Both the position numbers and the translations under genes were made by a program. A model generated the notes under the pieces. The model saw only the letters and a program-made list of their open reading frames with translations. It made no database searches and had not been told where the DNA came from. From the NCBI GenBank assembly GCA_016201905.1, contig JACQBQ010000024.1, positions 1 to 52,918 of the forward strand: a stretch of DNA of 52,918 nucleotides, written 5' to 3'. Source of the DNA: Candidatus Melainabacteria bacterium. Lineage in GTDB: Bacteria > Cyanobacteriota > Vampirovibrionia > 2-02-FULL-35-15. Positions 6,563 to 42,367 of this stretch are shown here, piece by piece (the first letter of the stretch is position 1; each line of letters begins with the position of its first letter).

Positions 6563-6605
6563 TTCACGCCATAATTCTATCGTTTGTCAACTATTCTTAC
6601 AAGTC

Positions 6606-7336: not shown

Positions 7337-8926
7337 ATGACATCACTTGCAATTGAATTAACTGCTCAAAGAAAGTGCGCAGGGCACTTACCTATATTTT
7401 TTACTCCTTCAATAAAAAATGAAGAGGATTTAGAAGCCTACAGAACAAGACAAGAGGAGAACTTTTTACCTGATGAGATTTTAAATGAAGAAAAATTCAT
7501 ATCCCAGAAACATATAACTGCCCGTGTACCTAAAGGTTGTAAACAATTTCCTGATAACTGGGCTAAGAAAATAAAATTAAATCCTGCTCAAAGAGAACAT
7601 TATAAAAATTTATTAGTAGCTCAAGGGCTTACAAAAGAGGAAGCTAAATACACACTGGATGCTGGTAGAGAAAATTTAAAAAGGTCAATAGTTTGGGCTA
7701 CAGAAAATGAAAAATACGGTAGTGAAGCAGCAAGATTTGCAGCAACAAGTACAGTTTTAGGAGTTGCAAAGTCAATTTTTGAAAATACTGAAGCTACTCC
7801 GGCTTTTATAAATACAATGCTGAACGTCCTTCAGGGTTTTACTCTTGGACAAAGAGGTAATCGTCAGTATTACCTTTATGGAAGCAATGATGATGACAGA
7901 GGCGTTTCAGCTTATCAAAGAGAGTATTATGGAAATAAAATATCCGGTGATTTGGCAGAGCTTGCCTGTACTTTTGAAACAAAAGTAAAACCTTATGTTT
8001 TACCGCTATTGGGCTACCTCGAAACTGATAACAGAGATGCAATAGCTTCACTTCTCACACTGCCAACAACACTTTTCTGGCGCATCAGGTATGGTGGTTA
8101 TATTAATCAGAAGTTTGCTACCAACCTGATAACTTACATTGCAAATAAACCGCTTGCTCTTTTAGGAGACAGGGCAAGTCAGAATGCTTTAAAGAACTTA
8201 GAAAAGGATTCTGATATTTTAACCATGCATTATTTGAAGCAAAGATTGAAAGTCTTACTAAGGCTGAAAGAAGGAGAAGCAGTATCAGGCAAAATGTACT
8301 CACTTACAAAAGATTTATTTTCAGATGATATTAACTCTGTAAGAAAATCGGCAGAAATTTTAAATGAAACTTTTGCTCCAATACTTGGAATTGCTGGGTT
8401 CACTTTTTCAGCTTTAGGTATTCCATTAAAAGCAATTACAATTTTTGCAACAGGTGAAGATTTAAACCCTCTTTTAAAAAGAACCATTGATTCATTTTCA
8501 ACCTGGGGAATTGCTACCCAGCAGCTTCTGTACAGTCTCAGATTTAGTGTTATGGAATATGTAAAAGGCAGACAAATTAAAGAAATCATTACTGAAGACA
8601 AACAAATGGACAGCATAAAGAAAAATGAATTACAAAGGCTGGTAGGAGACAGGTATAAACTGTCAGCCTTTGGATTTTTAGCTAATGGTTTAAGCTGTTT
8701 TTTACCTTTAGTTAAGCTACTTGATGACAGTAATCCGTTTTTTAAGGTGTCAAAGTCATTAACCTCTGAAACATCTTGTGGACTAAGCCAATATTTCTTC
8801 TCAAAAAGAAGAGAATTAAAAGCGAGATTTTTTAGAGTTAATAATGCAGAACTGTTTCAAAATACTGAGCCCTCTGTAGAAGAACCACCTCCTCCAAAAT
8901 TAAAACTTTACGGGGGAGAATATTAA
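7337..8926 (+). CDS. Large island-borne orphan protein, 529 aa
   Basis: I do not recognise this protein. The N-terminal about 140 residues are polar and helical (KLNPAQREHYKNLLVAQGLTK region). The middle about 145-330 is helical with many aromatic residues. There are amphipathic or weakly hydrophobic stretches near 350-375 (GIAGFTFSALGIPLKAI) and 440-460 (LSAFGFLANGLSCFLPLVKLL) that could touch a membrane. The tail is proline-rich (EEPPPPKLKLYGGEY). No signal peptide, Walker motif or nuclease motif is visible. It has its own transcript between the regulator region and the convergent DISARM operon, ending 87 bp from drmB. It could be element maintenance or cargo. Confidence 0.7.
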   Translation: MTSLAIELTAQRKCAGHLPIFFTPSIKNEEDLEAYRTRQEENFLPDEILNEEKFISQKHITARVPKGCKQFPDNWAKKIKLNPAQREHYKNLLVAQGLTKEEAKYTLDAGRENLKRSIVWATENEKYGSEAARFAATSTVLGVAKSIFENTEATPAFINTMLNVLQGFTLGQRGNRQYYLYGSNDDDRGVSAYQREYYGNKISGDLAELACTFETKVKPYVLPLLGYLETDNRDAIASLLTLPTTLFWRIRYGGYINQKFATNLITYIANKPLALLGDRASQNALKNLEKDSDILTMHYLKQRLKVLLRLKEGEAVSGKMYSLTKDLFSDDINSVRKSAEILNETFAPILGIAGFTFSALGIPLKAITIFATGEDLNPLLKRTIDSFSTWGIATQQLLYSLRFSVMEYVKGRQIKEIITEDKQMDSIKKNELQRLVGDRYKLSAFGFLANGLSCFLPLVKLLDDSNPFFKVSKSLTSETSCGLSQYFFSKRRELKARFFRVNNAELFQNTEPSVEEPPPPKLKLYGGEY

Positions 8927-9013
8927 GTACAAATCCAACCGCTGATATTAGTTTCATATATGAGAATCAATAAACCGTAAAATATGTTAAAAGCTAACAA
9001 GACATAACAAGGA

Positions 9014-13700: not shown

Positions 13701-14198
13701 TAGAGCTTCTTTTGAATTTTCCAGGTTTATCGGTTTAATAACATTATTTGAATAAGCAAAACTTTTGCTAAAGTCATCATTATTTAATATTGTTTCAGGT
13801 AGATTGTCACATTTTTCTTCTATTTCATGAATTTCAAGTTTTTTGTATTTTCCATATTGTGCTTTAACCTCAAGTTCTTCTTCCGGGCCTTCAACCATAA
13901 AACTTACACCAAATGCTGATGGATAAAAAGAGTTAAGTGTCGCAGCTGAATCAAGAGGTATTTCATCATCCTCTGCACTACTGACAGATTCTAGGTCCTC
14001 CCCGGTATCCGGAGTCCGTACAGGGCTGTCATCATCTGACAGAATTTCTGTTTCAGGCTCTGCTGGGTAGAGTATTCCAGAGGAATATACACTTAAAGGA
14101 TTTTCATCTATTATTTCTTCATCACCAAAAAGAGGGCCAACCAGCTCTTTATGAGCCTCATTTAATATTTCACTTCTTATCTGAGCATAATCCTTCAT
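10779..14198 (-). CDS. drmA: DISARM helicase DrmA
   Basis: This 1139-aa SF2-type helicase has a Walker A (PTGGGKTEAY, about residue 507), a DEAD-like motif II (IIQDELHLISG, about 711), and a C-terminal helicase domain ending in SVGVDIDRLN and QASSRIGRKYPG (about 930-955). A zinc cluster (CPWCGTHMDK at about 618, FCPNKNCDF at about 653) lies between motifs. The N-terminal 450 residues are a helical and beta region with an acidic stretch near 60-85. DrmA with DrmB is the sensing core of DISARM anti-phage systems. It overlaps the upstream NERD-helicase gene by 29 bp and drmB by 17 bp, so the set is one operon. All catalytic motifs look intact. Confidence 0.9.
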   Translation of the reverse strand: MKDYAQIRSEILNEAHKELVGPLFGDEEIIDENPLSVYSSGILYPAEPETEILSDDDSPVRTPDTGEDLESVSSAEDDEIPLDSAATLNSFYPSAFGVSFMVEGPEEELEVKAQYGKYKKLEIHEIEEKCDNLPETILNNDDFSKSFAYSNNVIKPINLENSKEALTNIIKILNSSDEKLKSFASVFYRIKDRIGAGRKRMGIENLKHKINRNTSGIIKLDDNVNLFVKSRLLGKKVLYTISMINSSEGSKYENSIFQVKLFVESTTSGKPVFVEYSDSTRYDNMEELSLTMLYLDKKSFAVGHGCTAGWETDSKGGRAFKIFSSAMPVVEVPSVSFNIKDINEDVKKILLMKNLSDDSGFNDQEKTKRLLDFCTLYKSWIDENHKRESQLPGIFKPVAEKHLSECEKVFDRIKHGVSLLVKNKNLIKAFKLANQTMRDQRIRYEYQKTRKNFSDTLPEAEKYYQEKAHSEPEWRPFQLAFLLLSLGSVEDNNSPDRNIVDLIWFPTGGGKTEAYLGLCALNIFYRRLSYLQNYGGTAIIMRYTLRLLTSQQFQRACTLICACERIRRQQGLGEQPVTIGLWIGGDSTPNAISGSSGAEEKLKALMTGYSDSNPFQVLSCPWCGTHMDKADALGYRIRTKPKRLELFCPNKNCDFNDFLPIIIVDEDIYNNPPTLLFGTVDKFASLASKGESRNIFFSTSGKIRNRKPDLIIQDELHLISGPLGSMVGLFECAVDILSSDKNSVPKIVGSTATIRNSIEQCRNLYNREVKQFPPPGLSSDDSFFSYTDYSTPGRIYVGVMPWGKTQSIAEIRLAAKLLQTVFCIKSSEEVIDKYWTLVAYFNSIRELGKFDTFINDDVQEQINNLSKRRTYVKQRFVNNKQELTSRKKAEEIPAILSELEKKYTAEKNHCVDLVSATNMISVGVDIDRLNLMTIVGQPKTTSEYIQASSRIGRKYPGIVFTIFNPVKSRDRSHYEHFIQYHNTLYKSVEPTSVTPFASPSRDRGLPAVFITLVRQVLGLTKDDSAQDFIKLDRADIENITAIILDRIQNIDAREYEIAKEELKSIVYKWESFVSSAPEEKVSFTNKTKKHLITSDQNDKSARFFVPNSLRNVDAECRIRQKEAEPDVLVVEEQKYAEKK

Positions 14199-15945
14199 AA
14201 TCTCTTAATTCTACCAATTTTAAATACTGATTTACATTTTCAAAATATTGTTCTTTCTGGTCTTCTTTCAAAAAAAGAAATAATAGACTCTTACATCTTG
14301 TCATTCCTATATAAATTAATGCCCTGCTGCGTTCGTTCTTTAAGTTATCAATATCAAGAAGAATTGTTATTTTATTTTCAAGTCCTTTGTAGACAGGTAT
14401 TGTACAAACAAAAACAGCATTTTCTATATGATTGGTTATATTTTCTTCTGTAAGTTCAGCTAAAATACAGGGCAAATAAATATTATCTCTTACAATTTGA
14501 AGTTCACTAAAAGGAGTTGAGGAAAGTATTGTAATATCACTGGCTGGTATTTTTTCAGTAACAATTAGCTGATGAAGAAGTTTCTGAAGCATAGATGTTT
14601 CTTCTTTTTTATCCTTGTACCACTGAAACTGAACTTTATCACCCTGAATTCTTTTTATACTCTCATTTCTGAACCCGCTTAATATGGACGCCTGAACAGC
14701 TATTTCCCTGGTATTACGACAGTTCAGATTTAGATTATAAATAGCAGTATTGTAATCACTGAGTTTATTTAAAACCTTGTTATCAAATCTTCCGTAAATG
14801 TTCTGCCTCTCCGAATCCATAAAAAATAGCCAGTTTCCATCACTTAGCCCATTTTTTAAAATACATTCAAGAGCATTGAAATAATTTACAGATAAAATAT
14901 CCTGGGCTTCATCTAAAATAAGACAATCATAAAAAGGAGCATTTCTTTTTTTTACAGCTTTCTGGAATAACTCAGGGTAGTGAAGTCCAAAAATTTCCTC
15001 TTTAGGTAAATTAAGTTTCATCAGATTACTTAGCTCTGAAGTAAAATTAGATTTCGCAATTTCTTCATAGAAGTACTTACTGATGGAATTTACAGTAATC
15101 AATTTACCCTCAGCATCTATTTTTTCTATCTCAGATTTTAATTTGATTCCAAGCAGCTTATTAAAACACAACAAAAGTGTTTTAATACCCATATGATAAT
15201 TCCTGCGTGCCTTTTCTACTGCAAGCATGGTTTTGCCTGTACCAGCTGCTCCCTGAAATATAACTCTTTTGTTTTCAGACATATGGTCAAGTGCATAGTA
15301 TTGCTCAGTTGTATAATTTGTAATTTCATCCTCTGTATCTTCAACTTTTTTCCACAGGGGTACAGGGATTTCAAAATCCCCCCTTATATAACCAATAACA
15401 TCTTCAATATTTTTTAGCGTCCCATGTTTTCTGGATTTTTCTCTCCAGTATTCTTTAAGCCTGGCAATATAATCAGAGATGTCATTCTTAATGTCTTTTG
15501 CATCATAAATAATTCTTTTATCCCATTCAGGGGACTCCTGTTCAAATACGATATCAGGGAACATTACTCCAAATCCAAACAAACAGTTGTTTAATTCGTT
15601 GCCAAATTTAATCTTAAGGTCATTTAAGAGAGCAAACATGGAATCAGAAACCTGTCTGAATGGACCCTGCGAATTAGATGTGATTTCACCATAGCGATTC
15701 CTGAAAGTCCATACACCATTTTCTCGTTTTACCTGTCCACCTTTTATTTCAAGACATATAATGCTTTCTTCATCAACCAGAACAAAATCAAGCTCAGCAA
15801 TCCTCTTTCTCTGGTGTCTGGCTAACGCCAGTGAATGTAGGCAGGTAATATTACCAAGTCGGGAGGATGATATAGATTCAAAAATCTTTCTTTCTGCCGA
15901 ACTCTTTATATCACGGTGAATGTAATCTGGTATTAATTTCACCAT
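14170..15945 (-). CDS. NERD nuclease-domain fused to UvrD-like helicase
   Basis: Residues of about 15-130 are a NERD domain: an AERKIFESI helix, RIAELDFVLVDEESIICLEIKGG with the acidic pair and ExK of a restriction-endonuclease-like fold, then GPFRQV. From about 215 a superfamily-1 helicase follows: Walker A GAAGTGKTMLAVEKA (about 230), motif II CLILDEAQDIL (about 343), LNCRNTREIA, and a late block ALIYIGMTRCKSLLFLF. It is expected to unwind and probably cut nucleic acid. It lies 13 bp after drmE and overlaps drmA by 29 bp, so it is an integral part of the operon. It is not one of the standard DISARM genes, and it sits in a locus without drmC; replacement of the DrmC nuclease is inference. 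Confidence 0.87.
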   Translation of the reverse strand: MVKLIPDYIHRDIKSSAERKIFESISSSRLGNITCLHSLALARHQRKRIAELDFVLVDEESIICLEIKGGQVKRENGVWTFRNRYGEITSNSQGPFRQVSDSMFALLNDLKIKFGNELNNCLFGFGVMFPDIVFEQESPEWDKRIIYDAKDIKNDISDYIARLKEYWREKSRKHGTLKNIEDVIGYIRGDFEIPVPLWKKVEDTEDEITNYTTEQYYALDHMSENKRVIFQGAAGTGKTMLAVEKARRNYHMGIKTLLLCFNKLLGIKLKSEIEKIDAEGKLITVNSISKYFYEEIAKSNFTSELSNLMKLNLPKEEIFGLHYPELFQKAVKKRNAPFYDCLILDEAQDILSVNYFNALECILKNGLSDGNWLFFMDSERQNIYGRFDNKVLNKLSDYNTAIYNLNLNCRNTREIAVQASILSGFRNESIKRIQGDKVQFQWYKDKKEETSMLQKLLHQLIVTEKIPASDITILSSTPFSELQIVRDNIYLPCILAELTEENITNHIENAVFVCTIPVYKGLENKITILLDIDNLKNERSRALIYIGMTRCKSLLFLFLKEDQKEQYFENVNQYLKLVELRDYEGLCSDKK

Positions 15946-15958
15946 CTGTTAAGCCCTT

Positions 15959-18712
15959 TTAAAGTAACCTGAATGTTTCATGAACCGGAACTTTTTCAGT
16001 TTCATACGAAATATCTATAAGTTTAGCAATATTAATATATTTTGTAACTTCACTTAGCTTTTCATTCAGCTCAGAAAATAATTCTGTTTCGTTGGCATCG
16101 GCAGTCATTGAAGGATAAAGCAGCTTTTTAACCAGACATCTGCCAAGTTTTATGTGTATTGATTTTAAGGCTACACAGGCAGATTTAACAGACTGGAGCT
16201 TGCTTGTTAACTCTTTATTCCCTGTAATTTTTGCAATTGCATCCAGTGCTTTATACCCGTCTTCAGGTGGTCCAATAAACCTATCATCATCTATCCATGA
16301 CCGTATAGTTACTATTGACCTTTTTACACCAGATTTTTCAAGTTCAATTTTTAATTTTTCAAGATTCATCCGTTTTTCAGTTACAAATTCTTTTAGGACA
16401 TGTTGCCAGAGGTCTGAGAGTTCTATAGTGTTTTTATCTATAAAGCCTTTTTCAACAGCTGCTTCAATAAGCTCCTCAAAAATTTCTTTTCTTGAATCAT
16501 CAAGAAAAATAACATCATCACCTCTTGTAAGTTCCATAACAGGAATTTCTTTTATACTTTCATTTTCTCTGTCAAAAATCTTTACTTTTTTTCCTTTAGG
16601 CAATAATGCGTATTTCCCCCCGTCAAACAATCCGAAAATTGCTTCAACTACTGTTTCTCCTTTTAAACATTCAGGAGATTGAGACCTGGCAATTGCTCTG
16701 AAAGAGTCTTTTAAGGATTCAAGCAGGGTTCTCGACTCCTGGGATTCACTGGTCAGATAATCCTTACCACTTAATGTGTTTTCCTCATATATCCCAAGAA
16801 GGATGCTTCTTACATCATCTCTATTCAGCTCATCCAATAGCTTAAGGGACTTTGTCTGAAACTTTCTATAATCAGAATATTCACAAGGATAAAAGAGCGA
16901 GATTTTCTTTCCGAAGCTGTTTTCAAGAAGTACAGGATTTTCATGAAATGGTGTAAATGAAGTAAACATTGTCAGGTCATAATCATCTGTTTCATTAATC
17001 TCACTATGTGTTTTAATCGTTATGTCCCTAAAATCATGTGATGATAATCCCAGAGCAGCTCTGAAGATTTCTCTGTAGTCAACAGCTCTGTCCCTATTGC
17101 AGACAACCAGACATATTTTCTTATTTTTATTTTTTTTAATTAGTTCAGACGCCTTGCTTAGCTTTGGTGAATCAGTATTAAAATTCTGACTAATCATGAT
17201 TACCAAAGCTCTGGCTTCATTTATGTGTGAATGCAAATCAGGTGACAGATTTGTCTTTTTAAGCTCATTTATTATTACCTTTATATCATTTTCAAACGCA
17301 TATAGTATTTCATTACCAACAATGCAGTGTAATGGAAACGGAAGGCTAAGCATAAAATAAAGAAAGCGGTAAATTCTGAAAACAAAAAAATTTAGTTCTT
17401 TGTGGTTAATTTTATTTGCAAACCGGGACAAATGTTCAAGTACTGATTTAAGTTTGTTTACTGAATCTTCGCTAATCCCCTGAGGATACGATACTCCAAT
17501 CGCTTCATGTTCTGTTACCAGGCTGTTCTTAAGTATCATATTGTGCCTTCGTATAACAGAATCTGAGCTATTAATAAAACCAGATTCCTGCTTCCTGAGA
17601 GAACCCAATTTCCCCGAAGCTAGTTCTGATGATTCTGATATTGAAAGATTACCCTTTTCATTAAACTCTACTGGGATTGTTGGGGAAAGGTTTGAAAGAT
17701 TTTTCAAATCATCACTTAGCCAAAGCCAGGAATCGAAAGGATGCTTCCCCTTCCGTAGTTCATCCGCAAGCTCATAATCTGATGTGTTTAAAAGAATATA
17801 AATATCCTCAATATTTTCCCTCTGGGTAATAATTGACGGAAGGAGACTATGCCCGCTTTTTACTTTTGCAGCTCCGCATACAAGTAGTGTTTTTATATCT
17901 GGATTACTCTTTGATACTTCAAAAGCAACATCCATATCAGTACAGATGTGAATAAAATATTCTCTTTCGGTAAAATCCCTTCCAATTCTCTGAGCCTCAT
18001 CAGGATTAGGGTAATAGGCTATTGAAAACAGGTCTTTCAGCTCAATACCATTCACTGTAAAAGAGGCAAATTTATCCAGCACATCTTTTTGTTCAGCAAC
18101 AATTAATATGCCTGACTGTTTATATAAAGTTTTATCTTCACAAATACCTTTAAAAATACTTTTCAGAACATGTCCCCTTTTTTCGATTAACTCGCTGCCA
18201 GGTAATGATTTTAAATCAATAGGTGAATCAGTAGCAGTTGAGTGAGAAGGATAAAATTTGTGCCTTTCATCTTCATAAATCCAGCTTGCTGTTTCTGAAT
18301 CCTTTCTCTGATTTGTCCTGTAATTAAGTTTATGGTATGTACCTTTGTACCCTCCATACAGGTCATCACTTGTACCTCCATATAATCCCCTCTTGACGCT
18401 GTTATCAACCGTATCTTTTACTAGCACGCATTCGTTGAGCTTTAGTTCATGAGGTTTTTTATCATTAACTATGTTCTTTTTAATATGTGAGAGTCCTGTA
18501 TATATCAAAAAAAGAATGTTAAAGAGTTCGTCATAGGGATGAAGAATTGTAAGCCTTTCTTTTGATTTATTTATTACATTTGCAGAAATGACGTGATAAT
18601 TAACAAGGTCATAAAGATTTGGATTTATTTTTTTTCCGTTAAACCTTATATCCAGTTCTTCAAATTCCGGAGAACTGGTTTTTATAAAATCTATTATTTT
18701 TTGATTAAACAT
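15959..18712 (-). CDS. drmE: DrmE-like protein of class 2 DISARM
   Basis: A 917-aa cytoplasmic protein with no signal peptide and few recognisable motifs. Features seen are an N-terminal helical region with HPYDELFNILFLIYTG (about 58-75), a central segment KKICLVVCNRDRAVDYREIF that looks like a Rossmann-type or helicase-C-like strand-helix, and a later small beta domain (KYALLPKGKKVKIFDRE then LTRGDDVIFLDD). The C-terminal 200 residues are helical. Its size, and its place beside drmA/drmB and a C5 methyltransferase, match DrmE of class 2 DISARM. The name rests mainly on context; I cannot confirm homology by eye. A near-consensus promoter lies 40 bp upstream. Confidence 0.6.
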   Translation of the reverse strand: MFNQKIIDFIKTSSPEFEELDIRFNGKKINPNLYDLVNYHVISANVINKSKERLTILHPYDELFNILFLIYTGLSHIKKNIVNDKKPHELKLNECVLVKDTVDNSVKRGLYGGTSDDLYGGYKGTYHKLNYRTNQRKDSETASWIYEDERHKFYPSHSTATDSPIDLKSLPGSELIEKRGHVLKSIFKGICEDKTLYKQSGILIVAEQKDVLDKFASFTVNGIELKDLFSIAYYPNPDEAQRIGRDFTEREYFIHICTDMDVAFEVSKSNPDIKTLLVCGAAKVKSGHSLLPSIITQRENIEDIYILLNTSDYELADELRKGKHPFDSWLWLSDDLKNLSNLSPTIPVEFNEKGNLSISESSELASGKLGSLRKQESGFINSSDSVIRRHNMILKNSLVTEHEAIGVSYPQGISEDSVNKLKSVLEHLSRFANKINHKELNFFVFRIYRFLYFMLSLPFPLHCIVGNEILYAFENDIKVIINELKKTNLSPDLHSHINEARALVIMISQNFNTDSPKLSKASELIKKNKNKKICLVVCNRDRAVDYREIFRAALGLSSHDFRDITIKTHSEINETDDYDLTMFTSFTPFHENPVLLENSFGKKISLFYPCEYSDYRKFQTKSLKLLDELNRDDVRSILLGIYEENTLSGKDYLTSESQESRTLLESLKDSFRAIARSQSPECLKGETVVEAIFGLFDGGKYALLPKGKKVKIFDRENESIKEIPVMELTRGDDVIFLDDSRKEIFEELIEAAVEKGFIDKNTIELSDLWQHVLKEFVTEKRMNLEKLKIELEKSGVKRSIVTIRSWIDDDRFIGPPEDGYKALDAIAKITGNKELTSKLQSVKSACVALKSIHIKLGRCLVKKLLYPSMTADANETELFSELNEKLSEVTKYINIAKLIDISYETEKVPVHETFRLL

Positions 18713-18752
18713 ATTATTTTATAAGCTGATTAATAAAGCGGTTTGAAAACAG

Positions 18753-18781
18753 ATTATGTGAACTCACTTAAATAGTATCAA
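18753..18781 (-). promoter_or_regulatory. Sigma-70 promoter of the drmE-NERD-drmA-drmB operon
   Basis: On the minus strand TTGATA (18776-18781) and CATAAT (18753-18758) are spaced 17 bp. This lies in the 121-bp gap between the methyltransferase and drmE, about 40 bp upstream of the drmE start. The effector genes may therefore be transcribed separately from the methyltransferase. Confidence 0.7.
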
Positions 18782-18833
18782 CATTAGTTTTATTCGAAAA
18801 TATGCTTATAAATTTTTAATCTTAGAGGGAAGA

Positions 18834-20099
18834 TTATTTCTGATTTTTGGTCTTTTTATGCCTAAATTTAAGAATTGATTTCTTAACCTCTTTTGCAATT
18901 GCTTCAGAAAGCAGGGGGGGAACAGCATTTCCAACCTGAATAAATCTGTTTGTCCTGTATCCTGTAAACCTGAAGTAGTCGGGAAAACTTTGAATTCTTG
19001 CTACCTCTCTTAATGAGAGAGTTCTTGTTTGTTTTTTATCAGGATGAATATATCTGTATCCATCCTTGGACATATGAGCAGTTACAGTATATGCCGGCTT
19101 TGACCAGTTTAATTTTCTGTACTTATCTTTAAAAATATCGCATCTGTATCTTCTGTGCTTTTCAGGAACATCTGCATAGGTACCACCTTCAGGAAGTAAA
19201 TTAAAAATAACTTTATCATCTTCTCTTACAGGTCTGATTACATGGTCATAAATAATGTTTTTTCTGCCATTCTGCATCTCACTTCTCATAAGTTTCTGAT
19301 AACTAGTAGTGCTTTTTGAATTATATTTTTGTTCTTCTGTCAGGCAGGGTGGCTTTCTAAATGGCAAGTCACCTATTGCATCAAAAAGAGTAAAATGACT
19401 GCTTTGCTTATAAGGCCATTTTATTTCATTGCTAACTCTGCTTCCCTGAAAAAATAAACGTCTTCTGGTTTGGGGAACTCCATAATCAACAGCATTCAGC
19501 AGTTTCCTCTCAACTTTATAACCAATCTTTTTAAAATCATTTTCAACCTTATTAGAAAAAATTTCACCATTCTCAGAATAAAAATTTTCCATTCCTGGTA
19601 CATTTTCCATAAGGAAGAATAAAGGTTTTATATCTTCAACAAACCTGATGAAATGCCTATATAGTAGATTCTTATTCCTATGGTATTTATCAAGCATTTT
19701 AAGGTTTCGTATTTTACCTCTGCCTTCAGTTGAAAACCCCTGACATGGTGGCCCTCCTATAATTAAGTCAACCTTTTCAATCCCTATATTTTTAAAGAAT
19801 TCTGACGGTTTTTTTATTCGGGTAATATCCATACAGAAAGTTTTTGCAATGAAATTGCCAGCATATGTTTCACATGAGTATTTATCGCTATCAATTGCCG
19901 CAGCAACAAAAATACCTGTTTGTTCAAAACCAAGACTTAAACCACCAGCACCACAAAACAGGTCAATAGCAATAATTGACTTTTTGTCTTTAATTCTCCT
20001 GTTCCATTCTTTTTCTTTTTCATTAATTTGGGGCTCAAGACAAACTTTACTGCCCCTTAAGCATTTAACCTCATATTTTTTTGTTTTTTCAGTAGACAT
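18834..20099 (-). CDS. drmMII: DNA cytosine-5 methyltransferase (DrmMII)
   Basis: All main C5-methyltransferase motifs are present in order: motif I DLFCGAGGLSLGFEQTG (46-62), motif IV GGPPCQGFS with catalytic Cys119, motif VI MENVPGM, motif VIII QTRRRLFFQGSR, and motif X QVGNAVPPLLSEAIA near the end. It has 421 aa with a target-recognition region between VIII and X. It should transfer a methyl group from S-adenosylmethionine to cytosine C5 in a fixed site and so mark self DNA. Its position upstream of drmE, NERD, drmA and drmB fits DrmMII of class 2 DISARM. A Vsr gene is divergent 73 bp away. The methylated site cannot be read from sequence; a Dcm-like CCWGG is possible. Confidence 0.88.
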   Translation of the reverse strand: MSTEKTKKYEVKCLRGSKVCLEPQINEKEKEWNRRIKDKKSIIAIDLFCGAGGLSLGFEQTGIFVAAAIDSDKYSCETYAGNFIAKTFCMDITRIKKPSEFFKNIGIEKVDLIIGGPPCQGFSTEGRGKIRNLKMLDKYHRNKNLLYRHFIRFVEDIKPLFFLMENVPGMENFYSENGEIFSNKVENDFKKIGYKVERKLLNAVDYGVPQTRRRLFFQGSRVSNEIKWPYKQSSHFTLFDAIGDLPFRKPPCLTEEQKYNSKSTTSYQKLMRSEMQNGRKNIIYDHVIRPVREDDKVIFNLLPEGGTYADVPEKHRRYRCDIFKDKYRKLNWSKPAYTVTAHMSKDGYRYIHPDKKQTRTLSLREVARIQSFPDYFRFTGYRTNRFIQVGNAVPPLLSEAIAKEVKKSILKFRHKKTKNQK

Positions 20100-20172
20100 A
20101 TTCTATTTCACAATTTTATTCGATTGGTTAAAATTATTTACTGTATATAAATAAAATAAGCAAGGACAGATT

Positions 20173-20634
20173 ATGGACGTTCTTACAAAAAAACAGCGTA
20201 GTTACAACATGTCAATGATAAAGTCAAAGAATACTAACCCAGAGTTCCTGGTAAAACAATCGATTAAAAGAAATCGTATAACCGGTGTTTCATACCACCC
20301 TCCTCTACCTGGTAAACCTGATTTAGCTATTAAGAGCAAAAAGGTTGTAGTTTTCATTGACGGCTGCTTCTGGCATAAGTGCAAAAAGTGTTTTAAAGAA
20401 CCTGCAACAAGAAGACAATTCTGGATTAAAAAAATTGAGGGTAATGTTATAAGAGACAAAAAGGTAAACTCTGAACTTGGTAAAAAAGGCTGGAAAATAA
20501 TCAGAATATGGGAACATCAGATACGCAAAGATAAAGACTGTACCTTTATAATAAAAAGACTAAAACAGATTTTACACACTGCAGACACTCGTGCAAAGCA
20601 TGAGAGATTTTTAGGCAATTTGCTATCGATTTAG
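20173..20634 (+). CDS. vsr: Very-short-patch-repair endonuclease Vsr
   Basis: Vsr nicks DNA 5' of the T in T:G mismatches that arise when 5-methylcytosine deaminates. Seen here are the N-terminal block SYNMSMIKSKNTNPEF, the catalytic-core strand PGKPDLAIKSKKVVVFIDG, and the zinc/active-site block GCFWHKCKKC, then FWIKKIEGNVIRDK and GWKIIRIWEHQI. At 153 aa it is full length. AAGGA precedes the ATG. It is divergent from the C5 methyltransferase across a 73-bp promoter region, the classic Dcm-Vsr partnership, here attached to a DISARM-type methylase. Its stop codon lies inside the first unit of the repeat array that follows. Confidence 0.93.
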   Translation: MDVLTKKQRSYNMSMIKSKNTNPEFLVKQSIKRNRITGVSYHPPLPGKPDLAIKSKKVVVFIDGCFWHKCKKCFKEPATRRQFWIKKIEGNVIRDKKVNSELGKKGWKIIRIWEHQIRKDKDCTFIIKRLKQILHTADTRAKHERFLGNLLSI

Positions 20635-20737
20635 TATCGATTTCTTATCGCTTTCATGGTCGATTTTTAGTCAGTTTTTAGACGGTTTTTCTCTGACGAT
20701 TTATTGGCGGTTTTTGTAGACAGTTCTTGTGATGGTT
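20624..20737 (+). repeat. Iteron-like array of ten short repeats
   Basis: Degenerate 9-base units of the form TATCGATTT/RGNCGRTTT start at 20624, 20635, 20646, 20658, 20669, 20680, 20694, 20705, 20718 and 20729. Most steps are exactly 11 bp, one DNA helical turn, with T-rich spacers. Direct repeats in helical phase near a replication gene are typical of iterons bound by an initiator. A function as origin or incompatibility site is inference. Confidence 0.6.
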
Positions 20738-20869
20738 CCACTATGGTTACTCTAAATTGAGAGTTGTAGCACTCTTACAGGCCATCGATGGGTCGTAATT
20801 ATTTTTTCAGGGGCCAACTCATAACAGGTGATACCTTGCTAAGTTCTGGCTTTATTTCTGAGCTATAAA

Positions 20870-20914
20870 ACTAACGTGGTATTTCTTATATAAACCAACT
20901 ACGTTAGTACTAAC
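20870..20914. repeat. Dyad with three ACTAAC half-sites
   Basis: ACTAACGTGGT (20870-20880) pairs with ACTACGTTAGT (20898-20908) apart from one G-T wobble. The overlapping GTTAGTACTAAC (20903-20914) is a perfect 12-bp palindrome. The loop is AT-rich (TTATATAA). It lies in the roughly 640-bp non-coding stretch between vsr and the ribbon-helix-helix gene, which otherwise holds the iteron-like array, a CCATCGATGG palindrome near 20793, and a TTACCGT direct repeat near 21110. It may be part of an origin or an operator. Confidence 0.5.
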
Positions 20915-21214
20915 AGAAAATGGCACTCAAACAAAATAGGGATAAATGTTTGAGCTGTCCCATAAGAGAACTATCGGGACAAAGTAAAGGGACACTTTTG
21001 CAAATACTTTGTAGAGAACAAAACTGTAAATCAATAATACGTATAAAAGCGATAAAATAAAGAATCAGCGGCCAAATATTATTTCCATGACGAACTTACC
21101 GTAAATTACCGTCAAGAATCAGGCTTAGGAAGCGGGTTTCAGAAGGAATCGGAGTGTAAAGAATTGTTTGCATTCAGGATATTAAAAATCGATTTTGTTT
21201 AGTATAGAAGTTGT

Positions 21215-21234
21215 ACTTTCAAGGAATTGAAAGT
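21215..21234. promoter_or_regulatory. Operator candidate before the ribbon-helix-helix gene
   Basis: ACTTTCAA (21215-21222) and TTGAAAGT (21227-21234) form a perfect 8-bp inverted repeat around GGAA, 38 bp upstream of the start at 21272. Ribbon-helix-helix proteins commonly bind such short repeats in their own promoters; the link is inferred. Confidence 0.45.
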
Positions 21235-21271
21235 TTATGTAAAAAATATTTATATTGAAAGGAGGAAAGTA

Positions 21272-21448
21272 TTGGAAAGTGTTTTAAAAACCAAAAAGAA
21301 ACGACCTGAAATCAGAAGCCTTTGCCTTGAAAAAGATATTTGGGAGAAAGCTAAGTCATTGGCCCAAGCTGAAGGACGCTCTGTATCAGGCTTCTTAAGA
21401 GCTATTATCAGACAACTATCTGATAAAAAAAACCTGCTACATAAATAG
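21272..21448 (+). CDS. Ribbon-helix-helix DNA-binding protein, 58 aa
   Basis: The pattern PEIRSLCLEKDIWEKAKSLA (strand then helix A), followed by GRSVSGFLRAIIRQLSD (helix B), is that of CopG/Arc-type regulators. The start is chosen as TTG at 21272 because a perfect GGAGG (21261-21265) lies 6 bases upstream. The longer reading from ATG 21227 would put the ribosome site inside the gene. Small proteins of this type control plasmid copy number or replication genes, and this one precedes the primase-polymerase-like gene by about 220 bp. Its stop codon overlaps a hairpin. Confidence 0.78.
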   Translation: MESVLKTKKKRPEIRSLCLEKDIWEKAKSLAQAEGRSVSGFLRAIIRQLSDKKNLLHK

Positions 21449-21454
21449 CAGGTT
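21431..21454 (-). terminator. Hairpin at the end of the RHH gene
   Basis: AACCTGCTA (21431-21439) pairs with TAGCAGGTT (21446-21454). On the minus strand it is followed by seven T residues, so it reads best as a terminator of minus-strand transcription. On the plus strand a T-run (21465-21472) begins only 10 bases later, so it may also attenuate RHH transcription. Confidence 0.6.
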
Positions 21455-21669
21455 AAAAACTTGGTTTTTTTTCTTCTCAAGTTAATAATACCAAGTATGT
21501 TATAAATTAACATAAAATATTAATTTATAATATGAAATTAAGAAGCTAGGTTAAGAACCTATTGCAAGAAAGCATTGGACTGGATTTGTACCGTACAGGC
21601 ATTGTTCTTGTGGGTAGGTCTTAGCACCTTTAGAAGTATCCCAAATGGGGAAACGCTTTCCATTTAAAA

Positions 21670-22902
21670 ATGGAAGGGGCTCCTTTTACTTGTCAACAGG
21701 TTAAACAAGCTGTGCAATTATACCTTGAGTTGCATGGCCACCGCTATGATTTTAGTTACAAGGTAAGTACTTCTTCTGCACATTGGGAATCTGGCTGGCC
21801 AACTGTAATGCCTGGTTTCAGCGAAAGAAAACAGAGGTCATTCAATCCTACACTTTCAGATAAAGCAATTAAAGATTTATTATTTGGCAAAGAAACAAAT
21901 ATACATAACGGAAATAAGAACGTTCGGATAGGATACGCAAGCTGTAGATTTGGAAAATACACACGCTACTTTGCAATTGACATTGACAATGAACCAGAGA
22001 ACAAATACTACAACATAGAAACAATACACAAAATACTTGAAATAACAAAAAATATTGGTGCTCCACTTCTCATGCAGTCAAGTTATAGCAAAGGGTGGCA
22101 TTTAAGGTGGTATTTTACTGAATCAATTAAAACATGGGACGTAGCTATTTATATTCACAACCTTTTTACAGAAAATGGCTTTGTTATTTCAGACGGTAAG
22201 TTTGAGCTATACCCAAACAGAAAAAGTGAACCACATGCCTTATATCGAGGCTTAAGACTACCTTGTCAAAAAGGTTCAGCATTACTTAGTCTAGAAGATG
22301 GGAGAGTGGTTGCAAGCCCTGATGAAGACCCAGAGATTTTTATAATCCATTGGGCTGAAGAGGTCAGAAAAAACTTAATTGATATTTCAAGCCTTGAATT
22401 TTTAAATGAAAAGAAATATTCCAATCCTAATACTCAAGGTTGGTATGAAAGATGTTTAAAAGCTAAAGAGGTGGGATTTACTGGTCCCTCACAAACCAAT
22501 AAATTACTTGGTGCAGTCGCAGATTATTACAGGGTTTTTAATGGCATATCTGACGTTAGTGAGCTTACAAAAATACTATGTAATTGGATAGATGAAAAAC
22601 ATAATGGGTTTTCAGATGAATACAACCATTCTCCAAAGTCGGCTTACTATTGGTGTAAAAGATGGGCTATATGCGCAATTAAAAATCGAAAGCCACTAAG
22701 TGGAGTAGTCGTGGCTAAGAAAGAAAATAATCATAACAAAGCTAAAGGAGGACAATATGACCACCAGTTAAGTAAATGTATTCAAGATGGGGTCATTAAA
22801 GATGGCATGAGTGTAAGAAAGATAGAAAGACTAACTGGTATACCTAAGAGTGCTATTGGCAGAAGGCTAAAAAGCAAAGTCTTTGCTTTCAGCAACAAAT
22901 AG
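21670..22902 (+). CDS. Primase-polymerase-like replication protein (AEP-type), 410 aa
   Basis: The N-terminal half shows the motif order of archaeo-eukaryotic-primase-like proteins: a DxD acidic motif in YFAIDIDNEPE (about residues 101-110), a lone His motif in SSYSKGWHLRWYF (about 138-150), a third acidic site in KFELYPNRKSEP, and RGLRLPCQKGSAL. The C-terminal part is helical and ends with a probable helix-turn-helix (VRKIERLTGIPKSAIGRRL). Such proteins prime or initiate replication of plasmids and integrative elements. No helicase domain is fused. The ATG sits in a hairpin (CTTCCATTT-type stem around 21657-21675) and has no ribosome site, so translation may be regulated or start elsewhere. 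The 200-bp leader upstream holds no gene. Confidence 0.72.
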   Translation: MEGAPFTCQQVKQAVQLYLELHGHRYDFSYKVSTSSAHWESGWPTVMPGFSERKQRSFNPTLSDKAIKDLLFGKETNIHNGNKNVRIGYASCRFGKYTRYFAIDIDNEPENKYYNIETIHKILEITKNIGAPLLMQSSYSKGWHLRWYFTESIKTWDVAIYIHNLFTENGFVISDGKFELYPNRKSEPHALYRGLRLPCQKGSALLSLEDGRVVASPDEDPEIFIIHWAEEVRKNLIDISSLEFLNEKKYSNPNTQGWYERCLKAKEVGFTGPSQTNKLLGAVADYYRVFNGISDVSELTKILCNWIDEKHNGFSDEYNHSPKSAYYWCKRWAICAIKNRKPLSGVVVAKKENNHNKAKGGQYDHQLSKCIQDGVIKDGMSVRKIERLTGIPKSAIGRRLKSKVFAFSNK

Positions 22903-23040
22903 TAGAGATTTATTTTTGAAGGAACAAGGGAAACCATCTCTACACAAAAAATAATTTAATCTGAGGCCAACCAGAGGCCTTCCGTTAAATAATCTAACTG
23001 CTGTTTGTTACGAATCTTCTACAACGTGCTATTCATGAGC

Positions 23041-23056
23041 CTTTGTAATTACAAAG
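23041..23056. repeat. Perfect 16-bp palindrome near the right island end
   Basis: CTTTGTAATTACAAAG reads the same on both strands. It lies in the 255-bp stretch between the primase gene and the right att copy, which otherwise contains only AT-rich sequence, a stem near 22961-22980 (GAGGCC...GGCCT) and the CGGCGTCA motif. It could be a recombination or regulator binding site. Confidence 0.4.
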
Positions 23057-23156
23057 CATTTACATTACCAGAGAGATTGCATATCATTAGATTGAAGAAA
23101 GGTTATACGACGTCATTCGGCGTCACTAGTGAAAATGTATAAAACTCTTAAACATA

Positions 23157-23231
23157 CGGGCCTTGAGGGATTTGAACCTGTGACGCCTCGGTTCGTAGCC
23201 GAGTCCTCTATCCAGACTGAGGTAAGGGCCC
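23157..23231 (-). pseudogene. tRNA-Arg(ACG)-like att copy with broken 3' half (attR)
   Basis: It is the same length (75 nt) as the intact copy at 4030-4104. The first 50 bases are identical, including anticodon ACG. The 3' 25 bases differ: the T-stem would be ACAGG/CCCTC with only two pairs, and acceptor pair 6 is C-A. So it cannot fold into a normal tRNA. It does keep a good upstream promoter (TATAAT on the minus strand, RC of 23244-23252 region), which is probably the ancestral tRNA promoter. Confidence 0.82.
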
Positions 23232-23258
23232 AAAGCAAAGAGTATTATAGCGTGGTCA

Positions 23259-23816
23259 TTATCTTTTTAGTTCATTGAGTATATTTTTAAACTTTTCTGT
23301 AAAACATTCAGAGAGAGATTTATCAAACTCACCAAGATATTTAAGGATGTATACTTCATCATAATTTTTGTTTTTTAAAAGAATATTTTTTATATCTTCA
23401 AGATCTCTTGCTCTACCTGCAAAGATTTTGTGGATTATTACATCTTCTAAGGCAGCAAAGTTAACCAGAACATTTTTAATTTGTACTTTGTTGGATCTTT
23501 TTATAGCTTCTAGTTCATATGGAGTAAAAGAGAAAATATAATCAACCTTAATGCTAGTTTCTTTATCTATTACAGGTAAAACCATGAACTGGTTTACAAA
23601 ATTAGCAGGATCATCTACAAGGATCTTTAAGTTAAGCTCATTTGTAATATCAACTATTTTTTTGTAGTCATTAGCTCCTAGCCCAAGGGTAATATCAATG
23701 TCTTTGGTAAGCCTTGGCTCGCCATATAAAAGCACTGCCTGACCACCTATAATCATGTACGGTATGCCAAGCTTATTAAGCTTATTAGCTATTGTTGCTA
23801 TTAGTTTTTGGAACAC
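23259..23816 (-). CDS. Nucleotidyltransferase-fold protein, 185 aa
   Basis: The N-terminus has the signature of minimal/AbiEii-type nucleotidyltransferases: IPYMIIGGQAVLLYGEPRLTK with Gly24-Gly25, then the metal pair Asp39-x-Asp41 in TKDIDITLG. A third acidic residue is likely in IKVDYIFSFTP. Later helices (FAALEDVIIHKIFAGRARDLEDI) match the family's C-terminal part. Such proteins transfer nucleotides to tRNA or protein and are common in toxin-antitoxin and abortive-infection loci. It overlaps by 32 bp a small upstream gene, suggesting a two-gene unit. It lies just outside the right att site, only 28 bp from it. The target is unknown. Confidence 0.78.
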   Translation of the reverse strand: MFQKLIATIANKLNKLGIPYMIIGGQAVLLYGEPRLTKDIDITLGLGANDYKKIVDITNELNLKILVDDPANFVNQFMVLPVIDKETSIKVDYIFSFTPYELEAIKRSNKVQIKNVLVNFAALEDVIIHKIFAGRARDLEDIKNILLKNKNYDEVYILKYLGEFDKSLSECFTEKFKNILNELKR

Positions 23817-24006
23817 TGTTTAATATATTTGCAGTTTTAATAGCTAAATCTATATCTTCAAGAGGATTTTTGATTGGTAGAACTCCCAAAGTAACTGCTT
23901 CTTTATACATTTCTTCAAAAAGGAAAAAATTCCTCGCAAAGTCTATTTTCTCCTTTGATATAAAGTTCTCCTCGAACTCTCTATACTTTTTATAGTTTCT
24001 TATCAT
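23785..24006 (-). CDS. Small partner of the nucleotidyltransferase, 73 aa
   Basis: A small, charged, helical protein (KYREFEENFISKEKIDFARNFFLFEEMYKEAVTLG region split by several Phe). Its end overlaps the start of the nucleotidyltransferase by 32 bp, so the two are co-transcribed and probably translationally coupled. The first-gene position and size are those of an antitoxin or accessory subunit, but no DNA-binding motif is visible and I cannot name a family. Confidence 0.62.
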   Translation of the reverse strand: MIRNYKKYREFEENFISKEKIDFARNFFLFEEMYKEAVTLGVLPIKNPLEDIDLAIKTANILNSVPKTNSNNS

Positions 24007-24150
24007 ATTAACTCTTAAAACCTAAAGATATTATACCCATTTTAAGCTATGGTTTAGTTAATTCAGTCCACTCATAGCCCAGCACCAGATGGAAAAGAGT
24101 TGGATAGATTGCATATTTTGTATATCGTTAGATGTTAAGATAAATCTATC

Positions 24151-24183
24151 AATTGTAAAGTTTTTATTGCTGCAATTGTAAAG
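24151..24183. repeat. 33-bp direct repeat, copy A
   Basis: This is the same as 25244-25276 apart from one base (32/33). Each copy holds AATTGTAAAG twice, 23 bp apart. Copy A begins one base downstream of the stop codon of the regulator gene at 24185-25207. Confidence 0.8.
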
Positions 24184-24184
24184 T

Positions 24185-25207
24185 TTAGTTTTTTGCCCTT
24201 TTTATCATAAACTCTACACTCTTAGAAGCATTAATTACTTGAATATTAACAGCACGGTGAGAATTTTTATATACTCTAAACACTTCATCTGCAAAACCTT
24301 GTCCTATAGATTTTACTCCTTTAAAATCTAAAATAATGTGCTTAAAGTTATCAAGTCCAAATAAAAATCTCTTGGCTTCAGAACGGGAAATATAATTATC
24401 TTTATTTTCTGATAGATGCACCATTACTTTTGTTTTATCAAATTCGTAATTTTCTCCACTATACCTGTCAAATAAATTTTTAAGAGTCTTGGTTGATCTC
24501 TGTTTAAGAGTAAACTTAACTTTTGTGCCCTTGAAATATTTTACATCTTTTAAAAAAACATCGTTTTTCTGGCTGTCTATAATTAACTGGAGTTTTGCGC
24601 TTTCTAATAAAAACTTGTCAGCTATTTTTGATGTAAAGAAAATCCCTTGTCCGGAATGATGTTTTGGATCTGTGGTTTGCTTTCCTTTAAGTAATTGTTC
24701 AACTGATTCGAAATGATCTTTAAGCTTATACTTCTTACGAATATTTTCAAAGACCCCTATACCTCTATCTATTACTTCAAATTCAAATTGACCATCTGTA
24801 CATAAAAGTTTTACATTAACAATTTTCGACTTTGAATGGTCTATCGCATTATTTAACATTTCTGTAAAAGCATAATTTGCTATTTTATATGCATTGTTTG
24901 AAAGATTTTTACTTAGTTTTATTTTTAAGGCAGCCTGGCTGAAAACTTTATCCTCATTTAACCCTTTTATTTTGTACTTAGAGATAAAAAGAACAGGTTT
25001 ATTTAAAGACTTTGCATTTGCTTGGGAATACTTAACGTATTTGGCATTATGAGTTGAGCCAACTTTGATAACTTTTCTTTCTGCAATTAATTCACGAAAA
25101 TGCTGGGCAATAGCTTGTCTTGAGATATCAATGAGCTTGTCGATATCTGATGTTCTTATTTCTCCTTTCAAGTTAAGCTGTTTAAGAATAAGTTCTTTGG
25201 TTTTCAT
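24185..25207 (-). CDS. Winged-helix / GHKL ATPase / STAS-like (DUF4325-type) regulator
   Basis: Three parts are visible. Residues 1-60 form a DeoR/GntR-like winged helix (IRTSDIDKLIDISRQAIAQHF). Residues of about 90-245 form a histidine-kinase-type ATPase: N-box EMLNNAIDHS, G1 DRGIG and G2 HSGQGIFFTSKIAD. The C-terminal about 75 residues are a STAS-like domain (RFLFGLDNFKHIILDF then SIGQGFADEVFRVY). There is no histidine phosphoacceptor domain, so it is not a classic sensor kinase. It resembles anti-sigma-like ATPase/STAS switch proteins merged with a DNA-binding head. Repeats containing TTTACA -35-like boxes lie directly upstream, so autoregulation is plausible. It is divergent from the SDR gene at 25332. 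Confidence 0.85.
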   Translation of the reverse strand: MKTKELILKQLNLKGEIRTSDIDKLIDISRQAIAQHFRELIAERKVIKVGSTHNAKYVKYSQANAKSLNKPVLFISKYKIKGLNEDKVFSQAALKIKLSKNLSNNAYKIANYAFTEMLNNAIDHSKSKIVNVKLLCTDGQFEFEVIDRGIGVFENIRKKYKLKDHFESVEQLLKGKQTTDPKHHSGQGIFFTSKIADKFLLESAKLQLIIDSQKNDVFLKDVKYFKGTKVKFTLKQRSTKTLKNLFDRYSGENYEFDKTKVMVHLSENKDNYISRSEAKRFLFGLDNFKHIILDFKGVKSIGQGFADEVFRVYKNSHRAVNIQVINASKSVEFMIKRAKN

Positions 25208-25231
25208 GATATATAAAGAAGGATTTTAACA

Positions 25232-25276
25232 AATTGTAAAGTTAATTGTAAAGTTTTTATTGCTTCAATTGTAAAG
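25232..25276 (-). promoter_or_regulatory. 33-bp direct repeat copy B plus extra half-site (operator candidate)
   Basis: AATTGTAAAG occurs at 25232, 25244 and 25267, the last two inside the 33-bp repeat shared with 24151-24183. Read on the minus strand each unit gives CTTTACAATT, whose TTTACA could serve as a -35 box for the regulator gene (start 25207, with TATATAT just upstream). The cluster lies between this gene and the divergent SDR gene and could control both. Confidence 0.6.
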
Positions 25277-25331: not shown

Positions 25332-26051
25332 ATGGTCCCTAAAAAAATTGCAGTTGTCACTGGAGCAAATAGAGGTATTGGCTTTGAGATTACCAGACAG
25401 CTTGCAAAAAAAGATATCCAGGTTATTCTAACGAGCCGTAATAAAACAAAAGGACTTATAGCAGTTCAAAAACTGCATGAAGAAGAAGGATTAGAAGTAG
25501 TGTTTCACCAGCTTGATGTAACTGACAGCATAAGTATCCAAGCCTTGATTGACTTTATCAAAAAGGAATATGAAAGATTAGATATTCTAGTGAATAACGC
25601 TGGTATCATGCTGGATAAAAATGACTCAGAAAATGCAAGCATATTAAAAACCAAACTTGACACTATTAGAAAAACAATGGAAACAAATACTTACGGACCA
25701 CTTGCTATTTGTCAGGCATTTATTCCACTTATGAAAAAGAACAATTATGGAAGGATAGTAAATATATCAAGTGGTATGGGTCAACTCGAAGAGATGAATG
25801 GAAATTATCCTGGCTATCGTCTTTCAAAAGTTAGTCTTAATGCACTGACAAAAATATTTGCAGATGAACTAAAAGAGCACGATATTTTAATTAACTCAAT
25901 GTGCCCAGGCTGGGTAAGAACAGATATGGGCGGTCCAAATGCTACAAGAAGTATAGAAGAAGGTGCAGAAACTGCAGTATGGTTAGCTACACTTCCAAGC
26001 AATAGTCCAAGTGGTGGTTTTTTTAGAGATAGAAATCTTATCCCATGGTAG
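25332..26051 (+). CDS. Short-chain dehydrogenase/reductase (carbonyl-reductase-like), 239 aa
   Basis: Rossmann-fold NAD(P)H oxidoreductase. The cofactor motif TGANRGIG is at residues 10-17, LVNNAGIM lies near 93, the catalytic Ser is in NISSGMG, and the catalytic Tyr-x-x-x-Lys is in YRLSKVSLNAL. The block INSMCPGWVRTDMGG follows. Its 239 aa is normal for the classical SDR class, and the end (SGGFFRDRNLIPW) is like plant and bacterial carbonyl reductases. The substrate cannot be read from sequence. It is divergent from the winged-helix/ATPase regulator; the shared upstream region carries the AATTGTAAAG repeats. Confidence 0.9.
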   Translation: MVPKKIAVVTGANRGIGFEITRQLAKKDIQVILTSRNKTKGLIAVQKLHEEEGLEVVFHQLDVTDSISIQALIDFIKKEYERLDILVNNAGIMLDKNDSENASILKTKLDTIRKTMETNTYGPLAICQAFIPLMKKNNYGRIVNISSGMGQLEEMNGNYPGYRLSKVSLNALTKIFADELKEHDILINSMCPGWVRTDMGGPNATRSIEEGAETAVWLATLPSNSPSGGFFRDRNLIPW

Positions 26052-41213: not shown

Positions 41214-42332
41214 TTGAAAACACTAAGCTTCACTAGGGCCGCCCCCGTAGAGATACCTGAAAGAAATGGGTATTTAAATGGCATACATATAAAAAGGGCA
41301 AGCTACATGAACAAAGACGAAGATATAAAAACCGCAAATATTGAGGAAACAGGGTCTGCAGACGAGCTTGTTAATAGCAGCACAGAAAGTATGCTTAGCG
41401 ACGATCTGAGCGAAAATAATGACTCAAAAAACAAGCAGAAAGCCTATACATCCTTAGTTTCATATCTTAAAGAAATTTCAAAACCTCATTTGTTAAAACC
41501 AGATGAAGAATATAAATTGGCAAAAATATACTCTAAAGGTAGTTATACCGATGCCACAAAAAGAGAAAAGAAATCAGCTGAAATTGCTAGACAGAAGTTG
41601 ATTAGGGCTAACCTTAGGCTGGTTGTAAGTGTTGCCAGGAAGTACAGTACTAAAGGACTAGACTTTATGGACTTAATCCAGGAGGGAAATATTGGTTTAA
41701 TTAAAGCAGCTGAAAAATTTGACTACAAGCTTGGTTATAGGTTTTCCACCTATGCTACTTGGTGGATTAGACAAGCAATAACAAGAGCAATTACAGAAAA
41801 GAGCAGGATGATCAGGCTACCAAACTCAGTTCAGGGTGTTTTAGCTAGATTAAAGAAGGTGAAAGAAGTACTCCCAACAACACTAGGAAGGGAACCAAGT
41901 GTAAATGATTTATCTTTAGCAACAGGGCTTTCAAAAAAAACAATTGAAAGAGTTATTAAATCTGAGGCGCAGCCCGTATCACTGGACATGCGAGTTGGAA
42001 ATGAACAGGATTCAAGCTTAGGCGATCTTTTGGAGAATAATGATGAGGCTGATACATTATCTGATGAAGCCTCAGATCAAAAGTTACTTTCAGCCGCAGT
42101 AAATAAGGCTATTGAGGATCTTTTAACTGAACGTGAACAAGAAGTAGTCAAATTAAGATACAGGATTAATGAAGATATAGCCTCTGATAAAGAAAGAAGC
42201 TTAAATGAAGTAGCTAATATGCTAAGCATTAGTTTAGAAAGAGTCAGGCAAATTGAATCGAGAGCAATTTACAAACTTAGAAACAACCTACACGTTAGAA
42301 AATATCTAATGGGCTTAATGAAGGGGAATTAG
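41214..42332 (+). CDS. RNA polymerase sigma-70 family factor (primary-type)
   Basis: It directs RNA polymerase to promoters. Region 1.2/2.1 starts near residue 82, region 2 contains [38 protein letters not shown] and the -10-recognition helix [19 protein letters not shown]. Region 3 is [20 protein letters not shown], and region 4 is [15 protein letters not shown], then [23 protein letters not shown] for the -35. It is a group 1 or 2 sigma. The TTG start at 41214 is uncertain: ATG 41307 would remove 31 residues and is equally possible. The N-terminal about 80 residues are acidic and disordered; the long region 1.1 of large RpoD proteins is absent. Confidence 0.92.
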
Positions 42333-42343
42333 TAAAGTTAACA

Positions 42344-42367
42344 CTTGCTGCAATTGTAAAAATTGTC
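42344..42367. repeat. Partial match to the AATTGTAAAG repeat
   Basis: TGCTGCAATTGTAAA here is shared with the 33-bp repeat at 24151-24183, 18 kb away. It lies between the sigma gene and tRNA-Ala. It may be a regulator site or a repeat fragment. Confidence 0.35.

Follow-up and report, generated by a model that had tools for sequence, protein, structure and literature searches.

The stretch analysed here (52,918 nucleotides of a Melainabacteria-lineage genome, hereafter the window) contains a gene for a predicted regulator lying between two near-identical 33-bp direct repeats, and the question it raises is what these repeats do. The sequence-only reading had placed one copy after the stop codon and the other in the promoter, and had proposed either autoregulation from both sides or a small cassette inserted by duplication. 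Direct reading and a repeat search bear out the two copies, which are identical at 32 of 33 positions and contain AATTGTAAAG units 23 bp apart (Table 1). The 23-bp arrangement described earlier holds in both copies, but a third unit on the 5' side had been missed, and the spacings of the 5' array are therefore 23 + 12 bp. The best explanation of the locus, which we consider probable, is a single-chain, ATP-binding autorepressor that would act on two-turn box repeats in its own promoter.

Table 1. Position of the regulator, its predicted sites and neighbouring genes in the window
Feature	Position	Strand	Basis or remark
Regulator gene, 340 aa	24185..25207	(-)	ORF, Pfam, AlphaFold, Foldseek
Winged helix-turn-helix of regulator, N-terminal	about residues 1-60		below Pfam cut-offs
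GHKL ATPase domain of regulator	about residues 85-235		
DUF4325 STAS-like domain of regulator, C-terminal	about residues 255-340		
5' operator (predicted), two CTTTACAATT units 23 bp apart, regulator promoter	25244..25276	(-)	same layout in L004, L006
Third 5' operator unit (CTTTACAATT), 12 bp from second	25232..25241	(-)	kept in L004, L006
3' operator (predicted), two CTTTACAATT units 23 bp apart, 1 nt past stop	24151..24183	(-)	L005 pair at same place
Degenerate third copy of two-unit element (likely, unproven)	42328..42361	(-)	between end of sigma-factor-like gene and tRNA-Ala
Candidate regulator promoter, TTTACA-18-TAAAAT, TG before second hexamer	25223..25252	(-)	promoter scan, weak
Possible promoter TTTACA-16-TAACAT toward 73-aa ORF and nucleotidyltransferase	24132..24159	(-)	9/12 match, not above chance
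73-aa ORF overlapping next gene, possible downstream target	23785..24006	(-)	no Pfam match
DUF6036/AbiEii-like nucleotidyltransferase gene, possible downstream target	23259..23816	(-)	ORF, Pfam
Divergent SDR oxidoreductase gene, sharing its intergenic region with the 5' operator	25332..26051	(+)	ORF, Pfam

In Pfam, the regulator matches HATPase_c_2 (E 1.4e-7, 32 bits against a cut-off of 27.4) and, at its C-terminus, DUF4325 (PF14213; E 5.1e-13, 49 bits against a cut-off of 23); its helix-turn-helix (HTH) stays below the cut-off, with HxlR as best match (0.0038). The AlphaFold model, built on a 27-sequence alignment (mean pLDDT 83, pTM 0.59), begins with a helical part that carries a two-strand wing, continues with a Bergerat-type domain and closes with an alpha/beta domain at the C-terminus; it fits the domain order wHTH-GHKL-DUF4325. 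Foldseek searches against the PDB gave SpoIIAB chains as top matches (E 3.9e-6), and the pNOB8 AspA winged-helix protein was among the weaker matches. A structure search recovered the STAS-like fold of the C-terminal domain only weakly. The N, G1 and G2 boxes of the GHKL domain are intact: E116, N119, N120, D147, G149, G151, G186 and G188 are invariant in all 27 aligned sequences (the window protein and 26 others, 28-64% identical to it). No histidine phospho-acceptor domain (DHp/HisKA) was matched in Pfam at E values up to 1, and a two-component sensor histidine kinase was rejected on this ground. Pfam and AlphaFold agree here with the earlier description of a DNA-binding head fused to a GHKL ATPase and a STAS-like domain, with no phosphoacceptor histidine. 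By hand alignment, the acceptor serine of SpoIIAA corresponds to Q303 (26 Q and one P in the 27 sequences), which would exclude canonical phosphorylation in cis; this reading stays a hand alignment, as hhalign of the DUF4325 profile against SpoIIAA did not align the domains, and a single-sequence structure of the DUF4325 domain, used for residue mapping, gave no usable alignment. The protein also matches phrog_3364, a phrog of unknown function.

A family set was collected by protein alignments, which gave some ten relatives from the class and some 20 contigs of IMG/VR. A contig scan with a single sequence as query found the G010 ortholog only, and tblastn of phage and plasmid records with the window protein and L009 gave no match. 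In two genomes of the same family (L004 and L006, 57-59% identity), three CCTTACAATT units stand at the same place with spacings of 24 + 12 bp. The wider set was examined with a motif-free test, which takes the best 9-mer self-match at each offset within 150 nt upstream of the start codon, in 22 non-redundant members including the window, the others being relatives and diverse prophages with 28-59% identity. A self-repeat of at least 8/9 at offsets of 21-24 bp occurs in 17 of the 22 members against 16 of 124 control ORFs (Fisher p = 2.5e-9), the start codons having been chosen by hand and the controls being a modest set drawn from the same loci. The offset peak is sharp at 22 bp (11/22 members, 4/124 controls). 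Markov-resampled upstream regions gave on average 2.3 and at most 6 members with a repeat in 300 runs. The excess persists when members are collapsed at 60% identity (15/20 with the repeat, p 3e-8) and at 50% identity (11/15, p = 1.7e-6). Five of the 22 members miss the 8/9 threshold, some of them having looser repeats.

The repeated words differ between lineages. The word is GTTGACAAT in L008 and L009, GTTTACAT in L033, GTTTACAAAA in L047 and GTAGCAAGT in L050, with a family box consensus of roughly TTKACAAT. No array is farther than about 100 nt from the start codon; L035 and L036 have three units at -64/-42/-20, and in L033, L034 and L045 a unit overlaps the start codon (ATG). Near-exact pairs (20-25 bp, at most one mismatch per unit), where found, occur only at the regulator's own promoter in loci of 4-11 kb; the exceptions are the window, with its 3' pair in addition, and L005, which has its promoter beyond the contig and shows a 3' pair only. 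L035, L038, L045 and L055 have no pair at this stringency, and looser ones are present in L035, L045 and L055. Since the near-exact pair is the only one in its locus, autoregulation seems to be the common rule. The two-turn repeat upstream of the gene is thus a predicted family-wide operator, and this prediction is what is new here. In L041 the N-terminus is an Xre-type HTH (Pfam HTH_31), and no unit pair is found at 21-24 bp; L041:4716-5807 appears as a natural domain swap, with HTH_31 ahead of the same GHKL-DUF4325 module.

That the regulator's own HTH reads these boxes is best supported by the correlation between the two. Among 18 members, HTH distance follows box distance (Mantel r = 0.34, p = 0.0002), the distance over the rest of the protein gives r = 0.09 (p = 0.25), and the partial correlation of HTH and box is r = 0.39 (p = 0.0002), for boxes that were hand-picked from the self-repeat output and not blind to the protein alignment. 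The same layout in distant bacteria and prophages, and boxes that track the HTH, mean that the wHTH-GHKL-DUF4325 protein very probably controls its own production. In the recognition helix (about residues 30-42 of the window protein), His/Tyr goes with ACAAT boxes in most homologs when compared by eye, with L047 and L029 as exceptions; this pairing is a possible specificity rule.

In the mechanism we propose, the winged helix would bind the box units of its own promoter. As these recur about every two helical turns, successive boxes may be filled by several protomers on the same side of the helix, which would cover the -35/-10 region and prevent transcription; that they repress, and do not activate, is our inference. 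DNA binding or oligomerisation may be gated by nucleotide state through the SpoIIAB-like GHKL ATPase together with the STAS-like domain, much as in the switch of an anti-sigma kinase and its antagonist but within one protein, and some signal would release the promoter. Through the 3' pair the regulator probably also keeps down, or insulates, the transcription unit that follows, here a putative target made of the 73-aa ORF and the DUF6036 nucleotidyltransferase. Against this, the candidate promoter in that direction does not exceed chance, and in L005 the pair after the stop faces a tRNA gene and not a nucleotidyltransferase. At the sequence level, the architecture, the intact ATPase motifs, the conservation of the putative operator, its co-variation with the HTH and the uniqueness of the sites are seen directly.

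The closest published logic is that of CapK and CapS (Controller of associated/adjacent pathways; Chambers et al., EMBO J 2026, PMC13373217), where CapS represses its own promoter and the operon downstream until a GHKL kinase, activated by single-stranded DNA, releases it. Both systems combine an anti-sigma-kinase-like GHKL domain, a STAS domain and a (winged) HTH, act on their own promoter and on a second downstream site (predicted in our case), and are tied to phage defence and mobile DNA. However, CapK (HTH-STAS-GHKL) and CapS (STAS-wHTH) are two proteins, whereas here one chain has the order wHTH-GHKL-STAS-like; CapS has a conserved phospho-acceptor serine, for which our hand alignment, which the profile comparison could not confirm, would place Q303 at that position; and the CapK/CapS sites are TTAA palindromes, in contrast to direct box repeats at about two turns. 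No CapS-like gene lies next to the regulator, whose neighbours are the 73-aa ORF with the nucleotidyltransferase and the SDR gene, and the neighbours of the other homologs are unrelated. With a single chain, another domain order and no adjacent capS, the regulator is therefore not a member of CapK/CapS. The SpoIIAB/SpoIIAA and RsbW/RsbV switches resemble it in the GHKL domain, whose best PDB match is SpoIIAB and which keeps the N-box Glu and Asn, and in the presence of a STAS-like domain. They differ in that the regulator has no known sigma-factor partner, has the antagonist-like domain in cis and brings its own DNA-binding domain. By its C-terminus, above the curated cut-off, it belongs with the PF14213 DUF4325 proteins, a family without known function; in a literature search DUF4325 was found only as an annotation label in two tables, and no description of the architecture or of the operator was found.

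These results predict which DNA the wHTH-GHKL-DUF4325 subfamily binds and how its sites are laid out (upstream of the start, with about 22 bp from box to box), and they pair HTHs with boxes from many lineages. A reporter could therefore be used to test directly for binding, for an influence of ATP and for the signal that induces the gene. If the protein works like CapK/CapS in one chain, anti-sigma partner-switch logic would reach self-contained, phage-carried repressors. It may be, and we suggest it tentatively, that there is a broad and largely unstudied class of one-protein ATP-gated autorepressors of this architecture, encoded by solo genes of prophages and chromosomes, holding a CapK/CapS or anti-sigma switch in one chain, acting on tandem boxes two turns apart and sometimes mobile as a single-gene cassette with direct repeats at its ends.

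Autoregulation from both sides, as first proposed, fares well at the promoter, where the repeat is family-wide and the boxes track the HTH; the 3' side, however, is a local matter. The syntenic locus L005 (regulator, tRNA-Arg and an adenosine deaminase 72% identical to that of the window) carries, immediately behind the stop, two exact units at a distance of 23 bp, L004 has a single degenerate unit there by eye, and L006 has none. The 3' site is an elaboration common to the window and this one syntenic ortholog. Of the 13 spacer bases, 12 are the same in both window copies (probability by chance 2.5e-6), whereas orthologs do not conserve the spacer; one copy was therefore recently duplicated or homogenised from the other. 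Since the pair after the stop in L005 has a different spacer, the 3' position predates this recent homogenisation.

These observations bear on the cassette reading, in which the regulator and its operator move together and the window 33-mers are an insertion scar (a target duplication) rather than two working operators. Flanking direct repeats were sought by BLAST of 500-nt upstream against downstream flanks (E below 1e-6) and found in three of 24 members against none of 108 control ORFs (Fisher about 0.005, computed by hand from the counts). Besides the 33-bp repeat of the window they are 46 bp long with 89% identity in L026 (159-204 and immediately past the stop, where the repeat takes in the beginning of the next gene) and 39 bp with 85% identity in L043 (4681-4719 and 42-80 nt after the stop). 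The three repeats differ in sequence, and those of L026 and L043 lie just outside operator and gene and are unrelated to the operator. The L043 repeat holds ATGTACGGAG-like units 22 bp apart, perhaps the operator of another regulator. The regulator is sporadic, being present in 7 of 60 relatives, and in prophages it stands as a solo gene, between two tail genes (L049), beside an exonuclease (L042) or beside an integrase (L035). Flanking repeats and solo placement in prophages therefore suggest that operator and gene can move as a unit. On the other hand, 21 of the 24 members have no such flanking repeat, no recombinase is attached to the gene, no empty site was seen, and the window repeat is the operator itself, with a pair also present after the stop in L005. 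The earlier idea of a cassette arising by duplication thus finds partial support in the duplicated or homogenised window copies and in the two homologs with unrelated flanking repeats, but as an account of the 33-mers we find the insertion scar rather doubtful.

It is also unlikely that the regulator is mainly a local controller of a neighbour, either the SDR gene or the nucleotidyltransferase, with autoregulation secondary, as for CapS with its adjacent immune operon. Of the two operators, one does share its intergenic region with the divergent SDR gene and the other precedes the 73-aa ORF and the nucleotidyltransferase, and CapS likewise binds two sites, in its own promoter and in that of the next operon (PMC13373217). 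However, no neighbour is conserved: the homologs lie beside an outer-membrane-like gene or a transporter (both judged by eye), tRNA, tail genes, an integrase or an exonuclease, and elsewhere pairs are found only at the regulator's own promoter. The SDR gene was set aside as a conserved target, as no ortholog was matched in ten same-family genomes in a search run without a positive control. The 73-aa ORF and the nucleotidyltransferase (23259-24006) resemble a toxin-antitoxin pair.

An apparent integrative island occupies positions 4030-23232 of the window, with tRNA-Arg(acg) copies at both ends (62/64 bp identical), an integrase (4170-5285) and a DISARM-like set (9014-20634) of DrmB, DrmA, a NERD-helicase, a DrmE_C protein, a DrmMII-like methyltransferase and Vsr. 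In the syntenic L005 the tRNA-Arg adjoins the adenosine deaminase without an island. A link between the regulator and DISARM was rejected because the regulator gene is not within the island, whose limits are set by the tRNA-Arg duplication, and because the island contains no unit pair with at most one mismatch per unit. A 410-aa ORF of the island (21670-22902) has no Pfam match and at best weakly resembles a primase-polymerase family (E 0.055).

Returning to the autorepressor reading, its boxes might be mere promoter elements and not a binding site for the regulator, as a -35 and a -10 hexamer with 17 bp between them would also stand 23 bp apart, start to start. The unit resembles both a -35 (TTTACA/TTGACA) and a -10 (TACAAT) sigma-70 hexamer, so promoter elements could be part of the signal. 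A promoter scan found 12 promoter-like sites against 11.1 expected by chance; the candidate at the regulator takes the second operator unit as its -35 and has the third unit in its spacer, and the candidate toward the 73-aa ORF uses the last 3' operator unit as a possible -35. Yet the repeat is found in 13% of control genes of the same loci against 77% of members, one and the same word is repeated, often three times, its sequence follows the HTH and not overall kinship, and units such as CCTTACAATT and GTAGCAAGT are poor fits to either hexamer, which makes this reading very improbable.

That the repeats are a common dispersed element (REP, MITE or IS end) can be practically dismissed: in spite of one degenerate third copy, the genome-wide count that the sequence-only reading had proposed found the exact unit pair (8-18 bp between units) only at the two window places, both at the regulator, in 2.28 Mb. 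Allowing up to 3 mismatches at a spacing of 23 added only three further places, one of them overlapping the 5' array. A search for a trans regulon in this genome gave no further unit pair.

The partial match noticed earlier near 42344 is real: it is a 16-mer without mismatch, of which base composition predicts 8e-5 in the window, and it forms part of the degenerate copy, which by eye consists of two units (8/10 and 9/10) at 24-bp spacing. TTGCTGCAATTGTAAAG with at most one mismatch occurs at three places in the genome, all in this contig and one of them this copy. For this search the reversed-pattern control has little value, since the forward word is much like a common codon run, and the operator-like third copy is therefore taken as likely but unproven. 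Single 11-mer sites are present elsewhere in the genome at C12:120808 and C40:11962.
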